Assembly (NCBI GenBank): GCA_040902225.1
Contig: JBBDXT010000007.1
Coordinates: forward strand, 382,346 to 446,345
Direction: 5' to 3'
Origin: Chloroflexota bacterium
GTDB taxonomy: Bacteria > Chloroflexota > Limnocylindria > QHBO01
DNA length: 64,000 nt
The stretch's first letter is position 1. Every line of letters begins with the position of its first letter. This document shows, in pieces, positions 53,010 through 63,251 of the stretch. A program made the position numbers and the translations under genes. The notes beneath the pieces were generated by a model. The model did no database searches. It saw only the letters and a program-made list of their open reading frames with translations, and was not told the DNA's origin.

Positions 53010-53471
53010 TCACCGACCCCACTCGCGGCGGAGGAGGAACGGGGTGGTGAGGGCCTCGCGCGTCCCGACGCTGCGCAGTTGCTTGCGCACCCGCTTGAGC
53101 AGCTTGCCGTGGTAGGTGCCGTCGCCGTACGGCTCGTGCAGCCGGGCCACGTCCCAGTCGTGGGTGCCGGCAATGGCGGCGGGCGGGAGGTATCGGTCCA
53201 GGACGGCCTTCGCCTCGTCGATCGCGACGAAGCGCCGTGCGCGCGTCGTATTGTCGAGGAGGGTCAGCAGGTCGGCAAAGCTGGCATCGAGGTCGGTGAC
53301 GAGGGTGGAGAGCCGCTCCATTGTCCCGGGCATGCGCTCCTGCTTGAAGAGGCCGCCAAGGAGCGCCTTGCGGTCCTCGTCGCCCAGGGCGGAGAGCGCG
53401 TCACGCAGGGCCGGGACAGCCGCGGCTGGATCCGCCATCGGGACCTCGTACTCGTAGAGATGGACCATCAC
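53010..53471 (-). CDS. Conserved-looking helical protein, function unknown
   Basis: This 153-residue protein is helical with no signal peptide (LRDALSALGDEDRKALLGGL; ERLSTLVTDLDASFADLLTL). The C-terminal half has HDWDVARLHEPYGDGTYHG, a motif I do not recognise. ATGA overlap couples it to the DinB gene upstream. Confidence 0.55.
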   Translation of the reverse strand: MMVHLYEYEVPMADPAAAVPALRDALSALGDEDRKALLGGLFKQERMPGTMERLSTLVTDLDASFADLLTLLDNTTRARRFVAIDEAKAVLDRYLPPAAIAGTHDWDVARLHEPYGDGTYHGKLLKRVRKQLRSVGTREALTTPFLLRREWGR

Positions 53472-53947
53472 TGCCGCTGGTCCCCGAATTCGCCGAAGGT
53501 CCAGCCATCCATCGGCGGCGGCTCGATCCCGAGCTGGGTAAGAATGGTGGCCGCCTGGGACCGATGCTCGGTGGCGTGGTTGATGGCCTGCACCAGGACG
53601 ACCAAGGTGGGGACCTTGTCGTCGTCGATCTCGATGATGGCCTGAGGGTCGAGCCGTTCGGCGACCTCAGCCAGCTGATGCCCCGTGAAGCGCGTCCGCT
53701 CCAGGAGGAGGTCGATGCCCGGCCATGGCCCGGGAATCTCCCAGCGGACCGGCGGCTCCCAGCCGGTGAGCAGCTGCAGGTACCAACTCTCGGCGCGGAC
53801 GATGTGAATGAGCGTGTGGGCGAGCTCGCCGTAGGTGCCCTCGACCGACGTGGAGCGCTGCTCGTCCGTCAGGTCGCGGCACGCCTCGAGGAGACGCTCG
53901 TTCGCCCATCGGTTCTGCCGGAAGATCTCGGTGAGAGTGGTGGTCAT
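53468..53947 (-). CDS. DinB-family metal-dependent four-helix protein
   Basis: This 159-residue protein has the DinB_2 pattern: NRWANERLLEACRDLTDEQ, HTLIHIVRAESWYLQLL and NHATEHRSQAATILTQLG. The three histidines (H48-type, H at NHATEH) would bind a metal. It may be a thiol-linked hydrolase or transferase. A GATACT box precedes the ATG by eight bases. Confidence 0.85.
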   Translation of the reverse strand: MTTTLTEIFRQNRWANERLLEACRDLTDEQRSTSVEGTYGELAHTLIHIVRAESWYLQLLTGWEPPVRWEIPGPWPGIDLLLERTRFTGHQLAEVAERLDPQAIIEIDDDKVPTLVVLVQAINHATEHRSQAATILTQLGIEPPPMDGWTFGEFGDQRQ

Positions 53948-53992
53948 CGCCTGCGAGTATCGCCGCAAGGACCGACCGGTACAATCGGCCGC

Positions 53993-55264: not shown

Positions 55265-56494
55265 TCAGTCCGGGAAGGCTTCCGGGCCCCGATCGGCCAG
55301 CTCGGCGGCGTGAGCCTCGGCGTCGGCGGCGCTCGGGGGAAGCCACGAGAACGGGTAGCGCGGGTCGTCCAGCTCACCCGCCTGGCGCGTGAGGCGCAGC
55401 GGGTGGAAGGTGTCGATCATGACCGCCAGCTCCTCGGTCGCCTCCTTGCCGATGCTCGCCTCGACCGTCCCAGGATGCGGGCCATGCGGGATCCCGGCCG
55501 GGTGGACGGTGAACGAGCTGATCTCCACCCCGCGCCGGCTCATGAAGTTGCCGGCGACGTAGTAGATGACCTCGTCGCTGTTGATGTTGCTGTGGTTGTA
55601 CGGCGCGGGGATGGCGAGCGGGTGGTAGTCGAACTTGCGCGGCACGAAGGAGCAGACGACGAAATTGCGCGGCTGGAAGGTGAGGTGCACCGGCGGTGGC
55701 TGGTGGACGCGCCCGGTGATCGGCTCGAAGTCGGCGATGTTGAAGGCGTAGGGGTACAGATACCCGTCCCAGCCGACCAGGTCGAAGGGATGGAACGCGT
55801 AGTGGTAGGCGGTCAGCTTCCCGCCCTTCTTGACCTCGACCACGAAGTCGCCGGTCTCGTGGTGCGCCTCCATCTCGCCCGGGGGCCGGATGTCGCGCTC
55901 GCAGTAGGGTGCATGCTCGAGCATCTGCCCGTACTCGTTCCGGTACCGCTTCGGCGGCTCGATATGCGACGGGCACTCGAGCCATAGCATCCGCTGGTCG
56001 TCGCCACCGGGGAGGATGCGATAGGTGGTGCCGATGGGGATGACGAGATAGTCGCCCGGCCCGTAGTCGATCGGCCCGAAGACGGTCTCCAGGGCCCCAT
56101 GCCCCTCGTGGACGTAGAACATTTCGTCCATCTCGCCATTGCGGTAGAAGTGCTCCATGGCCGAGGCGGGACGCACGATGCCGAAGGTCACGTCGGCGTT
56201 GTAGAAGAGCGGAACGCGGCCGCTGACCGCGTCACCGGCGACCGCCAGGCCGGCCGAGTTGACCAGGTGGTGGCGGTGGGGTCCGGCCTCGTCATCGGTC
56301 CAGGGCTCGAGCGAAACATCCCGCACCTTCTCGATCCGGTTGGTCTGGGTCGGCGGCGTGTGGTGGTAGAGGAGGCTCGCCTTGCCGGAGAAGCCCTCCA
56401 CCCCGAACAGCTCCTCGGCGTACAGGCTGCCGTCAGGCTTGCGGAACTGGGTGTGGCGCTTGTGCGGCACCTGGCCGCGCTGGAGGTAGAACAC
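55265..56494 (-). CDS. hmgA: Homogentisate 1,2-dioxygenase
   Basis: This 409-residue cupin enzyme opens homogentisate to maleylacetoacetate. It shows FYNADVTFGIVRP, FYVHEGHGALET and YYVAGNFMSRRGVEISSFTV with HPAGIPHGPHPG, carrying the iron ligands. It is shorter than mammalian HGD at the N-terminus. The start is GTG at 56494 with a TAGAAT box nine bases upstream. sixA follows on the same strand. Confidence 0.93.
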   Translation of the reverse strand: MFYLQRGQVPHKRHTQFRKPDGSLYAEELFGVEGFSGKASLLYHHTPPTQTNRIEKVRDVSLEPWTDDEAGPHRHHLVNSAGLAVAGDAVSGRVPLFYNADVTFGIVRPASAMEHFYRNGEMDEMFYVHEGHGALETVFGPIDYGPGDYLVIPIGTTYRILPGGDDQRMLWLECPSHIEPPKRYRNEYGQMLEHAPYCERDIRPPGEMEAHHETGDFVVEVKKGGKLTAYHYAFHPFDLVGWDGYLYPYAFNIADFEPITGRVHQPPPVHLTFQPRNFVVCSFVPRKFDYHPLAIPAPYNHSNINSDEVIYYVAGNFMSRRGVEISSFTVHPAGIPHGPHPGTVEASIGKEATEELAVMIDTFHPLRLTRQAGELDDPRYPFSWLPPSAADAEAHAAELADRGPEAFPD

Positions 56495-57121: not shown

Positions 57122-58198
57122 GTGTCCGACCTCGTTCCGGTCATCCATTCCGACGCGCACCTCGCCCACACCGGGCTGATCGAGCTCGCCAGCGGGGTCG
57201 AGATCCCCTGCTGGGAGTCGCCCGAGCGGGTGCTTGCCATCGAGGCCGCGCTTGCCGCTGATGGTGGGTACGCCTTCGACTCCCCCGATGGGCACGGGCG
57301 TGGACCCATCCTCGCGGTCCACGACGCCGACATGGTGGACGTCTTCGAGCATGCCTGGACCGATGCCCTGGCCGCGGGCGCGACCGACGGCTCGCGGGCA
57401 TGGCTGCCGGACACGTTCCTGCTGGATGCCTTTCGCGGCCCGATGCCGCCCAGCGAGCTGCCGGCCGGACGTCACCATCAGCTTGGCGCCTATCTCTTCG
57501 ACACCGCCACGCCGATCGTGGCGGGGACGTGGGGCGCAGCGCTGACCGCGGTCGACGTGGCGCTGAGCACCGCCGAGCGCGTGGTGGGTGGGGCCGCGCT
57601 GGCCTACGGCCTCTGCCGGCCGCCCGGACATCACGCCGCGCGGGGCATGCTGGGTGGCTACTGCTACTTCAACAATGCGGCGATCGTGGCCGACTGGCTG
57701 CGACGCGAGGGCGGCGCGCGGCGGGTGGCGATCCTGGACATCGACTATCACCACGGCAACGGCACGCAACAGATCTTCTGGGAGCGGGGCGATGTGCTGT
57801 ACCTCTCGCTCCACGCCGACCCGGCGCGCGCCTATCCCTACTTCTCGGGATACGCTGGCGAGGGTGGTGCCGGCGACGGTGCGCGCCTGACCCGCAACTG
57901 GCCACTCCCCGCGGGAACGGCGCTTGACGCCTATGCCGTGGCCCTGGCAGAGGCGCTGCAGATGATCGTCGCCTTCGCACCGGATGCGCCGCTCGTCATC
58001 TCGGCCGGATTCGACACTTTCGAGCGCGACCCGATCGGCGACCTGGCACTCCGCACCCCGGACTACGAGGAGATCGGGCGCCTGATCGCGGCCCTGGGGA
58101 TCCCGATGATCGCCCTGCAGGAGGGCGGCTACGCGCTCGATGCGCTGGGCGCCAACGCCGTCGCCCTGCTGTCCGGCCTGCGCGGCCCTCAGACCTAA
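57122..58198 (+). CDS. Histone deacetylase/acetylpolyamine amidohydrolase family protein
   Basis: This 358-residue zinc enzyme shows CRPPGHHAARGMLGGYCYFN, IDYHHGNGTQQIFW and SAGFDTFERDPIGDL, with all HDAC zinc ligands and catalytic histidines. The bacterial members deacetylate polyamines or acetoin-related substrates. The GTG start follows a TACACT box by 11 bases. Its stop overlaps the convergent dehydratase stop by 4 bp. Confidence 0.92.
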   Translation: MSDLVPVIHSDAHLAHTGLIELASGVEIPCWESPERVLAIEAALAADGGYAFDSPDGHGRGPILAVHDADMVDVFEHAWTDALAAGATDGSRAWLPDTFLLDAFRGPMPPSELPAGRHHQLGAYLFDTATPIVAGTWGAALTAVDVALSTAERVVGGAALAYGLCRPPGHHAARGMLGGYCYFNNAAIVADWLRREGGARRVAILDIDYHHGNGTQQIFWERGDVLYLSLHADPARAYPYFSGYAGEGGAGDGARLTRNWPLPAGTALDAYAVALAEALQMIVAFAPDAPLVISAGFDTFERDPIGDLALRTPDYEEIGRLIAALGIPMIALQEGGYALDALGANAVALLSGLRGPQT

Positions 58199-59619
58199 CC
58201 CCTGAGAATCTCCGCGAAGGCCGCCGTGTCGACGTTGCCGCCGCTGATGACGATCACGCGGTGGTCGTCGCCGTCCGGCTGAGGAGCAGCGCCCGAGAGG
58301 AGGGCCGCCATGCCGGCCGCGCCCGACGCCTCAACAACCAGGCGCGCTCGCGTCGCGAGCTGGCGCATCGCATCGGCCATCTGCTCCTCGCTGACGGTCA
58401 CGATCTCGTCCATGAAGCGCCGCAGGTGCAGGAAGGGGAGCCAGCCGAGATGCTCGACGCGCAGCCCATCGGCCATGGTGCGAGTGGTGAGCGAGCCGTC
58501 CCAGCGAACGATCTCGCCCGTGACCAACGACTCGCGGGCGTCCGCAGCCAGCTCCGGCTCGACCCCGATGACGCGGGCATTCGGCGCCAGCGCCTTGATG
58601 GCGGTGGCGATCCCGGCGGACAGGCCGCCACCACTCACCGGGATGAGAACGCTCGTCACCGCGGGCAGATCCTCCGCGATCTCCAGGCCGCAGGTGCCCT
58701 GCCCGGCGATGATCCGCCGATCGTCGTACGGCTCGATCATGACCCGCCCGTCCCGCGCGACCAGCTCCAGCGCGATGGCGTGTCGCTCCTCTCCCGTCCG
58801 CCCGGCGACCACGATCTCGGCGCCATCGCGTCGGACCCCGGCCACCTTCACCGGCGGGGCGTCCTCCGGCATCACGATGGTGGCGTGCGCACCGAGCAGT
58901 CGCGCGGCCCGCGCCACCGCCTGGGCGTGGTTGCCTGACGAGTAGGTGACGACGCCTCGCGACCGCTCCTCGTCGGTCAGCGAGGCGACCGCGTTGTAGG
59001 CGCCGCGCATCTTGAAGGCGCCGACGGGCTGCAGGCTCTCCGGCTTGAGCCAGGTGCGGTCGTCCCAGCGCAGCAGCGGGGTGTGCAGGGCCACTCCCCG
59101 GATCCGCTCGGCAGCTTGACGAATCTCGTCGACGGTCACCAGCTCAAGCCCGTCGAGCTGGTCAGCGTGCTCTTCGAGGTGCGACAGGACGAATCGTTCG
59201 ACGATCGCCCCCAGGCTCATCTCACCAACGGACGGGTGGAGGCCGCGCGCCTGCCACGCCTCCGGGGGCAGCCCCTGCAGCGTCGCGGATGCGTCGCCGA
59301 TCTGGGCCGTTACCCGGCGCAGCAACTCGGCCGGGTCGGTGCGCCGTTCCAACTCGATGGCAGCGATGCGGCCGGCATCGGCCTTGGTCCGCCCGAAGGG
59401 GATCGGCTCCGCTGCCCCGGCGGCACGCGCAGCGAGCAGCTTCCGGACCTGGTCGAGCCAGTAGCCGGGGAACTCGGCCAGGTGCGCCCACACCTGTCCC
59501 GCCTCCCAGCGCTCGGATGCACCCGGATCGGGATCGGTCAGGCCCGATGGCAGAGGGCGCGCCGCGTGCGCGACGAGCCGCCGCTCGACCCTGGCGAGCC
59601 GATCAGGGACGGGGTTCAT
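58195..59619 (-). CDS. DinB-like domain fused to threonine dehydratase-family PLP enzyme
   Basis: This 474-residue protein has a DinB-like four-helix domain at about 10-158 (WEAGQVWAHLAEFPGYWLDQ, ending VLSHLEEHADQLDGL). A fold-type II PLP enzyme follows from 160: VTVDEIRQAAERIRGVALHT, GAFKMRGAYNAVA with Schiff-base K203, SSGNHAQAVA and SGGGLSAGI. The second domain is typical of threonine dehydratase or serine racemase without an ACT regulatory domain. The two parts run in one frame with no stop. The ATG at 59619 overlaps the GNAT gene stop (ATGA). Confidence 0.88.
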   Translation of the reverse strand: MNPVPDRLARVERRLVAHAARPLPSGLTDPDPGASERWEAGQVWAHLAEFPGYWLDQVRKLLAARAAGAAEPIPFGRTKADAGRIAAIELERRTDPAELLRRVTAQIGDASATLQGLPPEAWQARGLHPSVGEMSLGAIVERFVLSHLEEHADQLDGLELVTVDEIRQAAERIRGVALHTPLLRWDDRTWLKPESLQPVGAFKMRGAYNAVASLTDEERSRGVVTYSSGNHAQAVARAARLLGAHATIVMPEDAPPVKVAGVRRDGAEIVVAGRTGEERHAIALELVARDGRVMIEPYDDRRIIAGQGTCGLEIAEDLPAVTSVLIPVSGGGLSAGIATAIKALAPNARVIGVEPELAADARESLVTGEIVRWDGSLTTRTMADGLRVEHLGWLPFLHLRRFMDEIVTVSEEQMADAMRQLATRARLVVEASGAAGMAALLSGAAPQPDGDDHRVIVISGGNVDTAAFAEILRG

Positions 59620-60154
59620 CGGTCCTTCGCCGCTCGTCGGACTCGGCCCCGCGTCAAGGTGTAGACGTCGATATCGTGCCACTTGCCCTTGTGGTACCAC
59701 GCCTCGCGCGACGTTCCCTCCTTGATGAAGCCGCACTCTCGGCAACGCGATGCGAGCCCACGTTGTCGACGTGGATCGTCAGATGGAGCCGGTTGATCGG
59801 CTGCGTGTCGAAGAGCCAGCCGGCAAACAGACCGAGAGCCTCGCTCGCGATGCCCTTTCCCCAGTCGGCGCGGTCGAAGACGCGATACCCGAGCTCCATG
59901 TCGGGGACATCGCCGTTCAGCTTGTTCCTGTCGACCGTGCCGACGAGCCGATCCTGCTGGTCGACCATCACGAGCACGCCCTCGCCATCCGACATGCGCC
60001 CGTCTTCCTCGAACCTGCGTCGGAATTTGATCAGTGAACCCCGTGACAGCGGATACCAGGGCCCACGTCCCTCGATATCCATCATCCGGCCGTACAGCTT
60101 CTCGACATCGGCTTCAGCGATCGGACGCAGAGATACGTTTGTCCCCTTGATCAC
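59616..60154 (-). pseudogene. GNAT (RimJ/RimL-type) acetyltransferase gene with a single-base frameshift
   Basis: From the GTG at 60154, preceded by AAAGGAGG, the frame encodes a RimJ/RimL-like acetyltransferase (VSLRPIAEADVEKLYGR, then DRADWGKGIASEAL, and NRLHLTIHVDNVGSHRVAE). It then goes out of frame at 59736-59740. In the next frame CGFIKEGTSREAWYHKGKWH continues the expected C-terminus to VYTLTRGR and stops at 59616 with an ATGA overlap with the downstream gene. One A is missing (GAGAAGTGC expected, GAGAGTGC seen). This is either a recent lesion or a sequence error. Confidence 0.8.
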
Positions 60155-60167
60155 ATTGTTGCCTCCT

Positions 60168-61169
60168 TTAGGGATGCGCAATGACAGGAGTCGCGAGCTT
60201 GCCAAGTCGTTCGACCGCAAGCGTCACCTGGTCGCCGGGCTCGAGCCAGCGCTTGAAGACCTCATCCTTGATCTCCAGCAGGCAGCCGGTGCCGACGGTG
60301 CCTGATCCGATCAGGTCGCCGGGTCGCAGCCGCACATCGGCGCTGGCACGCTCGATCATCTCGCCAAAGCCGAACTGCGCATCGGCCCAGCTGCCGCGCG
60401 AGAGTTCAACACCGTTCACCTCAGCGGTCATGGCCAGGTCATAGCCCTTCGCGTGCCGCGCATCTGCCAGCTCATCGGGGGTGACCAGCCAGGGTCCGAT
60501 GGACGACGCGAAGTCCTTTCCCTTTGCCGGACCGAGGCGGACCGTCGTCTCCTCGCGCTGCAGGTCGCGGGCGCTCCAATCGTTGAAGACCATGTATCCG
60601 CCGATCGCCTCCTCACCCCGCTCCGCGGAGAGGTCCTCGACAGGCGTGTCGATCAGCGCCGCCACCTCCAGCTCGTAGTCCAGCTCCTGCGACGCGGCGG
60701 GGCGCCAGACCGGATCTCCAGGGCCGCGAATCTCCGAGACGTTCGAAAAGTAAAAGATCGGGATCCGATACCAGGCCTCAGGCACCGTTCCCCCGCGGCG
60801 CTCCCACATGGTACGGACGTGACCCTCGAACGCGTAGAAGTCGCGCAGTGATGGAGGCTTCAGGATGGGTGGCCCGAACAGAAGGTCGATCGCGGCCAGC
60901 GTCGGCTGCTCGGCATCGGCCGACGCCTCAACGATCTCGCCCAGCGCTCCGACCCTCAGCCCGCGTCCCAGCAGGTCGTCCAGCGTCGTCAGCGGCTGCC
61001 GGAAGAGGGCTGAGTTGTGGGCCAGTCTCGGGTCGGCCGCCACCCGTGCGCGGCGCGCCGGCTCCAGGTCGAGCCAGTGTCCCGGGGCGTCTCCTGCGTC
61101 AAGGGCCGCTGCGATTCGCCAGGGAGTGCCGGCAGGGGCATCCGTCTCCCGGACGTGGGCAACCTTCAT
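60168..61169 (-). CDS. Fumarylacetoacetate hydrolase family protein
   Basis: This 333-residue enzyme has the FAH core YELEVAALIDTPVEDLSAER, GYMVFNDWSARDLQ and LRPGDLIGSGTVGTGCLLEI, with the metal-binding Glu/Asp set. It matches the C-terminal catalytic domain of FAH and probably cleaves fumarylacetoacetate, given hmgA and hppD nearby. A TAGACT box nine bases before the ATG suggests its own promoter. Confidence 0.9.
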   Translation of the reverse strand: MKVAHVRETDAPAGTPWRIAAALDAGDAPGHWLDLEPARRARVAADPRLAHNSALFRQPLTTLDDLLGRGLRVGALGEIVEASADAEQPTLAAIDLLFGPPILKPPSLRDFYAFEGHVRTMWERRGGTVPEAWYRIPIFYFSNVSEIRGPGDPVWRPAASQELDYELEVAALIDTPVEDLSAERGEEAIGGYMVFNDWSARDLQREETTVRLGPAKGKDFASSIGPWLVTPDELADARHAKGYDLAMTAEVNGVELSRGSWADAQFGFGEMIERASADVRLRPGDLIGSGTVGTGCLLEIKDEVFKRWLEPGDQVTLAVERLGKLATPVIAHP

Positions 61170-62117: not shown

Positions 62118-63251
62118 TCAGAGATTGCCCCGCTTCTCCTGCTCGCGCTCGATCGCCTCGAAGAGGGCCTTGAAGTTGCCCACCCCGAAGCCACGCGATC
62201 CGTGGCGCTCGATGATCTCGAAGAAGAAGGTCGGGCGGTCCTGCATGGGCTTCGTGAAGATCTGGAGCAAGTAGCCCTCCTCATCGCGGTCGGCCTCGAT
62301 CCCCAGCTCCTCGAGGAGATCCATCGGAATCCCGACGTCGCCGACGCGCTCCGGCAGCGCGGCGTAGTACTCGTGAGGCAGGCCAAGGAACTCCACTCCC
62401 CGTGAGCGAAGGGCACGCACCGTGCCGACGATGTCTTCGGTGCGCAGGGCGATGTGCTGGGTCCCGGCATCGAGGTAGTAGTCGAGGAATTCCTGGATCT
62501 GGCTCTTGCCCTTCCCCTCGGCCGGCTCGTTGATCGGGAACTTGATGCGGCCGTTGCCGGACTGCATCACCTTGCTCATCAGGGCGGAGTACTCGGTGTG
62601 GATCACCTTGTCGTCGTAATGGATCAGCTGGCTGAAGCCGAGCGCGTCGCGGTAAAAGTCGACGAATCGGTTCATGTCGCCCAGCGCCACGTTGCCGACG
62701 CAGTGGTCGACCTCGAGCAGCTGCTGCCCGGTGGCCGCGGCCCGCGGCCTGGTGAGGCGGTGGTAGCCGGGAGCGAATGCGCCGGTGTAGTCGCTGCGGT
62801 CGATGAAGGAGTGGAGGACCTCGCCGTAGGTGTGAATCGCCGATTGGCGCAGCACGCCCTTCTCCCCGGTGAGCTCGGTTGGCTCGAGCGCTGAGCGAGC
62901 GCCACGCGTCGTCGTCTCGCGCCAGGCCGACGACACGTCGTCGACCGCGAATGCGATGTCGTGCACCCCGTCGCCGTGGCGGCGGACATGCTCGGCCAGC
63001 TCCCCGGCCTCGGTCAGCGGGGCGGTGAAGACGAAGCGGATGTCGTTCTGCACCAGCACATAGCTGGCGCGGTCACGGACCCCCGTCTCGAGGCCGGCGT
63101 AGGCGACCGGGGTGAAGCCCCACAGGGCCCGATAGTAGGCCGCGGCCTGCTTGGCGTTCCCAACCCAGAACTCGACGTGGTCGATCCCCTTGAGCGGGAG
63201 GAAGTCGGCTGCCGCGTCCGCGGCGGCGGGACGGGCGAGGATATCGGTCAT
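62118..63251 (-). CDS. hppD: 4-hydroxyphenylpyruvate dioxygenase
   Basis: This 377-residue Fe(II) enzyme converts 4-hydroxyphenylpyruvate to homogentisate. The two VOC-like domains show IDHVEFWVGNAKQAAAYYR and VDHCVGNVALGDMNRFVDFY. The iron ligands are the His of LEVDHCVGN, the His of AGTQHIALRTEDI and the Glu of PTFFFEIIERHG; GFGVGNFKALFEAIE ends it. The ATG at 63251 overlaps the purine nucleoside phosphorylase stop. Confidence 0.96.
   Translation of the reverse strand: MTDILARPAAADAAADFLPLKGIDHVEFWVGNAKQAAAYYRALWGFTPVAYAGLETGVRDRASYVLVQNDIRFVFTAPLTEAGELAEHVRRHGDGVHDIAFAVDDVSSAWRETTTRGARSALEPTELTGEKGVLRQSAIHTYGEVLHSFIDRSDYTGAFAPGYHRLTRPRAAATGQQLLEVDHCVGNVALGDMNRFVDFYRDALGFSQLIHYDDKVIHTEYSALMSKVMQSGNGRIKFPINEPAEGKGKSQIQEFLDYYLDAGTQHIALRTEDIVGTVRALRSRGVEFLGLPHEYYAALPERVGDVGIPMDLLEELGIEADRDEEGYLLQIFTKPMQDRPTFFFEIIERHGSRGFGVGNFKALFEAIEREQEKRGNL

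Follow-up and report, generated by a model that had tools for sequence, protein, structure and literature searches.

A DinB-type domain fused to a serine racemase-like PLP enzyme is a candidate maleylacetoacetate isomerase in Chloroflexota

Introduction

The degradation of tyrosine through homogentisate requires a maleylacetoacetate isomerase, for which textbooks give MaiA, a glutathione-dependent glutathione S-transferase (GST). Mycothiol maleylpyruvate isomerase (MDMPI), whose N-terminal domain is the Pfam family MDMPI_N, works by a thiol mechanism, and its metal site has a Glu where the proteins described below have a third His. The available passages of one study place MDMPI in gentisate clusters (PMC6498646), and the part available of another gives three conserved metal-binding His as the rule of the DinB/STL superfamily (PMC10950700). 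For PLP enzymes of fold type II, excerpts of a review on serine racemases list residues S84, R135, E210, and D216 of the human enzyme and report that S84 and R135 are conserved also in threo-hydroxyaspartate dehydratases (PMC6424897).

Here we describe a chloroflexotal gene in which a DinB domain is fused to a PLP dehydratase, and we argue that the DinB half is a strong candidate for a maleylacetoacetate isomerase that is not a GST. The genomes concerned encode the dioxygenases and the hydrolase of the pathway, whereas a GST of this kind is missing from them, and if the DinB protein carries out the step, the gap is filled in three phyla.

Results

The window, a stretch of 64,000 nucleotides from a Chloroflexota contig (JBBDXT010000007.1), holds an uninterrupted minus-strand reading frame of 474 residues, from an ATG at 59619 to a stop ending at 58195 (Table 1). 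Pfam assigns the full protein (P0001; its genome is G000) a DinB_2 domain at residues 12-154 (35.9 bits, cut-off 24.8) and a PALP domain at residues 180-460 (248.8 bits). The gene is present once in the genome. Among 101 relatives searched (G-numbers), matches that span both domains in one frame, from residue 1, 5, or 7 to residue 472, 473, or 474, were found in G001, G002, and G003 (84-85% identity), G005 (76%), and G008 (63%). The six fused genomes belong to one family, and G000-G003 form one genus of it. When 400 genomes of the phylum were drawn, spanning matches over the whole query occurred, among the matches listed, only in G000, G001, and G002, with G003, G005, and G008 absent from the listed genomes of this draw. 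A scan of viral contigs with P0001 gave two pattern stretches and no relative. Conservation in six genomes rules out a frame or assembly artefact. The initial annotation is borne out in that a DinB-type domain of four helices is joined in frame to a PLP dehydratase; the domain has a His triad that resembles a metal site.

Since two other relatives (G013 and G015) carry the same genes adjacent with a stop between them, the fusion is a genuine, lineage-specific gene fusion. In these two genomes the genes are same-strand neighbours, the DinB TGA being followed by 18 bases and then by the dehydratase ATG in another frame. Separate genes with a stop, which the initial annotation had raised as an argument against the fusion, are thus seen, but in another arrangement and another genus, and they leave the fused lineage unaffected. 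In other family members that have both genes, DinB and dehydratase lie apart.

The junction of G000 reads QLDGLE-LVTVDEIR, and both the tail seen in separate DinB proteins and the start seen in separate dehydratases are missing from it. Pairwise dN/dS values among G000-G003 and G005 are 0.18-0.47 for the DinB part, 0.07-0.23 for the dehydratase part, and 0.01-0.27 for the 23-codon junction, which shows purifying selection on the junction. At the junction itself the fused genomes have no conserved in-frame start codon; the sole in-frame ATG after the junction that is common to all six fusions lies just past the PLP lysine, and an in-frame GTG at GVAL is common to five of the six. Because of this placement of the shared starts, it is unlikely that G002 or G005 makes a complete separate dehydratase free of DinB residues. 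In a tree of the dehydratase, the five g1/g3 fusions form one supported clade with G008 apart, and a topology holding all six together is rejected (AU p 0.017), so a second, independent fusion in G008 is possible; the DinB tree leaves a single origin possible.

Table 1. Features of the window that are discussed in the text.
Feature	Coordinates	Strand	Basis or remark
Fused gene, DinB domain + PLP fold-type II dehydratase	58195..59619	-	474 aa, Pfam matches, relatives G001, G002, G003, G005, G008
DinB domain, aa 1-158, proposed maleylacetoacetate isomerase	59146..59619	-	DinB_2, MDMPI_N, AF2 model, structural matches
His46 codon, first of three invariant His (putative metal site)	59482..59484	-	invariant in 24- and 47-sequence sets
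His147-x3-His151 codons, second and third invariant His	59167..59181	-	24- and 47-sequence sets; 1rxq His
PLP dehydratase, aa 160-474, serine racemase / threo-3-hydroxyaspartate dehydratase type	58198..59142	-	PALP, NF005454, 1v71, residues
GNAT acetyltransferase, between FAH and fusion	59654..60220	-	apparent frameshift near its end
FAH-family hydrolase (PF01557)	60168..61169	-	directly upstream of DinB in related genomes
4-hydroxyphenylpyruvate dioxygenase (HPPD)	62118..63251	-	TIGR01263 417.7 vs cut-off 277; start codon inferred
Homogentisate 1,2-dioxygenase-like protein (HGD)	55265..56494	-	HgmA_N, weak
Histone-deacetylase-like protein, convergent neighbour of fusion	57122..58198	+	converges on the fused gene
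Second, different DinB-family protein (PF05163), near enoyl-reductase-like gene	53468-53959	-	Pfam

The best NCBIfam model for the PLP half is NF005454, threo-3-hydroxyaspartate ammonia-lyase (311 bits, below the equivalog cut-off of 452), and the best PDB match is 1v71 (3.3e-65), which we take to be the S. pombe serine racemase. Text on the S. pombe enzyme in the accessible part of PMC6424897 also implies this identity. K203 of P0001 aligns to the PLP lysine, and A358 is also among the noted residues of this half. S228, R279, E354, and D360 have a spacing identical to that of the four human serine racemase residues, and the serine racemase / THA signature (re-face Ser, substrate Arg, and an E/D divalent metal site) is present. 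In the alignment shown, each of these four residues is retained in at least 24 of the 25 dehydratase rows, the exceptions coming from a G000 paralogue (L002); in the TdcB chain 2gn0, Ala occupies the place of S228. From these features the PLP half is closest to the serine racemase / threo-3-hydroxyaspartate dehydratase type, and its exact substrate is a prediction from this likeness. An IlvA-type enzyme minus its ACT domain is ruled out by the best matches to NF005454 and 1v71. Pfam gave no ACT match in P0001 at E 1, and the protein ends 14 residues beyond PALP. The idea of a dehydratase that "lacks its ACT domain" is therefore not supported, since an enzyme of this type needs none and its absence is no loss. 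Even for threonine dehydratases, the portion available of PMC3851459 treats forms with the catalytic domain only as ordinary and considers that the ancestral enzyme might have had the catalytic domain alone.

When the N-terminal 159 residues were searched in isolation, they matched both DinB_2 (40.2 bits, cut-off 24.8) and MDMPI_N (26.5 bits, cut-off 24.2), the latter not being among the matches of the full-length fusion at E 1. We assembled 47 DinB sequences, that of the window and 46 from the 59 loci described below; at E 0.01 the DinB profile is matched by 40 and MDMPI_N by 26 of them. No Pfam match to the MDMPI C-terminal domain was found in P0001 or in the 47 segments, all trimmed to the stretch that the DinB search had matched, and the open frames of the stand-alone orthologues are too short to hold that domain. 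AF2 models have a mean pLDDT of 94.1 for the DinB domain (24 sequences) and 93.4 for the full fusion. Structural comparison of the DinB model with VIA-align put YfiT (1rxq) on top with Z 16.2, with 2rd9 at Z 13.9 and the MDMPI structure 2nsf at Z 13.2, a value that is weak alone because the arrangement common to helical bundles can by itself give about 13; 2nsf is not among the matches listed in PDB profile searches with the domain. On the model, the domain is predicted to have the four-helix bundle fold of the DinB / YfiT (S-transferase-like) superfamily.

Fifteen positions are invariant in the 47 sequences: W38, A45, H46, A48, E49, W54, F75, G76, R77, R84, H128, G132, H147, H151, and Q154. 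In a weak profile alignment (E 0.22) the three His of the triad fall on His of YfiT (1rxq), and H46, H147, and H151 probably form a metal site. The invariant His and Arg residues are kept alike in fused and unfused DinB, and the conserved pattern looks like that of an enzyme.

The genomic surroundings of DinB point to homogentisate. We retrieved 30 DinB loci from among the 101 relatives, and in 28 of them an FAH, HGD, or HPPD gene adjoins DinB. FAH lies upstream of DinB in all 18 loci of family f1 (in the window with the GNAT gene between), and in this family the FAH and DinB genes overlap or abut. Among the 11 loci of family f3, HGD is the neighbour in two and a divergent HPPD in eight, with none in G077, and the single f2 locus has no homogentisate neighbour. 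DinB stands beside FAH also where the dehydratase is elsewhere: G012 has the pair on a contig without a dehydratase, and in G009 the dehydratase is on a different contig. A scan over species genomes, overlapping in genomes with the first set, gave 59 DinB loci, from Chloroflexota, Dormiibacterota, and Actinomycetota save L116. In 52 of the 59, the nearest FAH, HGD, or HPPD gene is within 1 kb (FAH upstream in 36, divergent HPPD in 11, HGD in three, FAH downstream in one, and HPPD upstream in one). The remaining seven (L117, L139, L147, L153, L154, L158, and L161) lack a homogentisate neighbour, among them L117 (CSP1-4), whose DinB is 60% identical. The dehydratase stands beside DinB in seven of the 59 loci, all on contigs of f1 genomes, and lies within the homogentisate neighbourhood in several genomes even where unfused. 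Across the 101 genomes, HGD and DinB occur together in 34, HGD only in two, DinB only in 22 (some of these genomes being incomplete), and neither in 43 (Fisher p 9e-10, uncorrected for kinship).

Some loci of these sets stand out on their own account. G007 (L089), 94% complete, has HGD, HPPD, and the dehydratase, with no detectable DinB orthologue. L116, titled Steroidobacteraceae, holds the G008 locus of family f1, and this MAG looks mislabelled or mixed. At L160:6001-6337 and L121:5726-6447 the DinB matches are split or doubled, possibly through a frameshift or tandem copies.

In the window itself, the FAH protein scores 63.8 bits with the fumarylacetoacetase model, far under the cut-off of 375.3, and the substrate there could for this reason differ. 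The GNAT gene between FAH and the fusion is found only in G000 among the six fused genomes. In this region (59617-60220, minus strand) its GNAT-like C-terminal stretch runs on in another frame, to a terminal TGA that overlaps the ATG of the fusion; the apparent frame shift may be an error or mark a pseudogene. The second DinB-family gene of the window, a rival for the isomerase, was not found at L071, L072, L079, L089, or L090, some of which may stop short.

The maiA model TIGR01262 is matched by none of the 101 relatives and by nothing in the whole G000 genome, the fusion included. TIGR01262 and MshC were also searched in the genomes of 36 of the 59 loci; none of these DinB-bearing genomes has a TIGR01262 match above cut-off, and one has weak GST-like matches. 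The operon of Desertimonas flava (L126, Acidimicrobiia) encodes HPPD, an aminotransferase-DinB fusion, fumarylacetoacetase, and HGD, and that of an Ilumatobacter MAG (L133) encodes HPPD, DinB, fumarylacetoacetase, and HGD; the fumarylacetoacetases score 411 (L126) and 430 (L133), above the equivalog cut-off of 375.3. Since both operons hold HPPD, HGD, and a fumarylacetoacetase at equivalog level, the trans isomer is the product expected of the missing step. A Ca. Aeolococcus MAG has HPPD, HGD, an aminotransferase, FAH, and DinB in one operon. For the isomerase step, this leaves DinB as the single candidate that recurs. The D. flava fusion (L126:4861-6573, 570 aa) joins the same DinB domain to an aminotransferase and arose apart from the dehydratase fusion.

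As for the thiol, BshC has no match in G000, which rules out bacillithiol there. A second CysRS-like protein of G000 (L085:8303-9562) scores 374 bits with the MshC model (cut-off 485) and 398 with the CysRS model, whereas the main CysRS scores 236 bits with MshC; similar CysRS pairs occur in other f1 genomes. A Mca-like amidase reaches 185 bits (cut-off 277) and the MshA candidates at most 140 bits (cut-off 462). Of the 36 other DinB-bearing genomes, Kitasatospora alone passes the MshC cut-off and 21 have an MshC-like match (E 1e-95). A mycothiol-like thiol is possible in these hosts.

Discussion

Gene context and family membership lead us to judge it probable that the DinB half is a maleylacetoacetate isomerase that depends on a metal and probably on a thiol, fused here to the next gene; the metal, the thiol, and the reaction are inferred from these two bases. 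DinB would convert maleylacetoacetate to fumarylacetoacetate in place of the glutathione-dependent MaiA of the homogentisate pathway. By analogy with maleylpyruvate isomerase, a metal-held thiol would add to the cis double bond, let rotation occur, and depart. The C-terminal PLP enzyme would act on hydroxy amino acids. In the lineage to which G000 and G005 belong, DinB lost its stop and the dehydratase its start, which placed the two enzymes on one polypeptide and joined two neighbouring genes of amino-acid catabolism. Weighing against the isomerase role are HGD without a detectable DinB in G007, DinB without a detected HGD in 22 genomes, the seven loci that lack a homogentisate neighbour, the missing MDMPI C-terminal domain, the sub-cut-off scores of the MshC-like and Mca-like proteins together with the lack of BshC, and the low fumarylacetoacetase score of the window FAH. 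Beyond this locus, we lean toward the view that the DinB proteins of the three phyla are GST-independent maleylacetoacetate isomerases of tyrosine degradation, repeatedly fused to PLP enzymes of amino-acid catabolism (the dehydratase in Chloroflexota, perhaps twice, and the aminotransferase in Desertimonas flava).

The same neighbourhood could be read differently if DinB were a thiol S-transferase that detoxifies electrophiles arising in the pathway (benzoquinone acetate, maleylacetoacetate, and succinylacetone), with the FAH-family protein cleaving maleylacetoacetate directly. The distance of the window FAH from the fumarylacetoacetase equivalog and the presence of HGD without DinB in G007 speak for this reading, as does the placing of bacillithiol and mycothiol transferases among the DinB/STL proteins in the text available of PMC10950700. 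It is nonetheless unlikely, because an operon that has a fumarylacetoacetase at equivalog level but lacks MaiA still requires an isomerase, and coupling to FAH as tight as that of the overlapping or abutting f1 genes is not expected of a detoxifying enzyme. Far less credible is a DinB domain that regulates the dehydratase in the stead of an ACT domain, as the initial annotation had suggested; in its favour, both halves form one polypeptide in six genomes. Most DinB orthologues stand alone beside homogentisate genes, with the dehydratase next to them in only seven of 59 loci, and carry the same invariant His and Arg residues whether fused or not; the PLP family, moreover, functions without ACT (in part from the passages of PMC3851459). 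The alternative suggestion, a thiol-related step, was half right: its direction agrees with the isolated domain scoring above the MDMPI_N cut-off.

Compatible with the isomerase role is a neutral origin of the fusion, in which a small deletion joined unrelated catabolic enzymes with no channelling or new function. We regard this question as evenly balanced. The 18-base gap between separate neighbours in G013 and G015, and the unfused dehydratases still found in homogentisate neighbourhoods, fit such an event, but the fusion has been kept across two genera with its junction under constraint, and that of G008 may be independent. Any benefit of the fusion would be conjectural.

For the maleylacetoacetate isomerase that we favour, the DinB half is the interesting half of the protein, and the fusion serves as a natural pointer to a pathway and not to a new regulator. 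If true, the proposal assigns a substrate to one DinB family and offers a clean test of the host thiol. The open-access literature yielded no description of a DinB domain fused to a PLP dehydratase, in keeping with the first impression that no such protein had been described, and no paper linking homogentisate with DinB.

Compared with described systems, MaiA, a zeta-class GST (TIGR01262), has the same proposed reaction and the same slot in the pathway, but it belongs to an unrelated family and is absent here. Serine racemase and threo-3-hydroxyaspartate ammonia-lyase share the S/R/E/D spacing and provide the best matches of the PLP half (NF005454 and 1v71), whereas P0001 falls below the equivalog cut-off and has an N-terminal DinB domain. 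The YfiT/DinB (S-transferase-like) proteins 1rxq and 2rd9 have the fold and the His triad columns of the DinB domain; unlike the DinB proteins described here, these entries are titled only putative metal-dependent hydrolases and have no pathway link. Finally, MDMPI (2nsf) shares the DinB-type N-terminal domain and offers an analogous proposed cis-trans isomerisation in a ring-cleavage pathway, but it has a C-terminal domain and belongs to the gentisate and not the homogentisate pathway.
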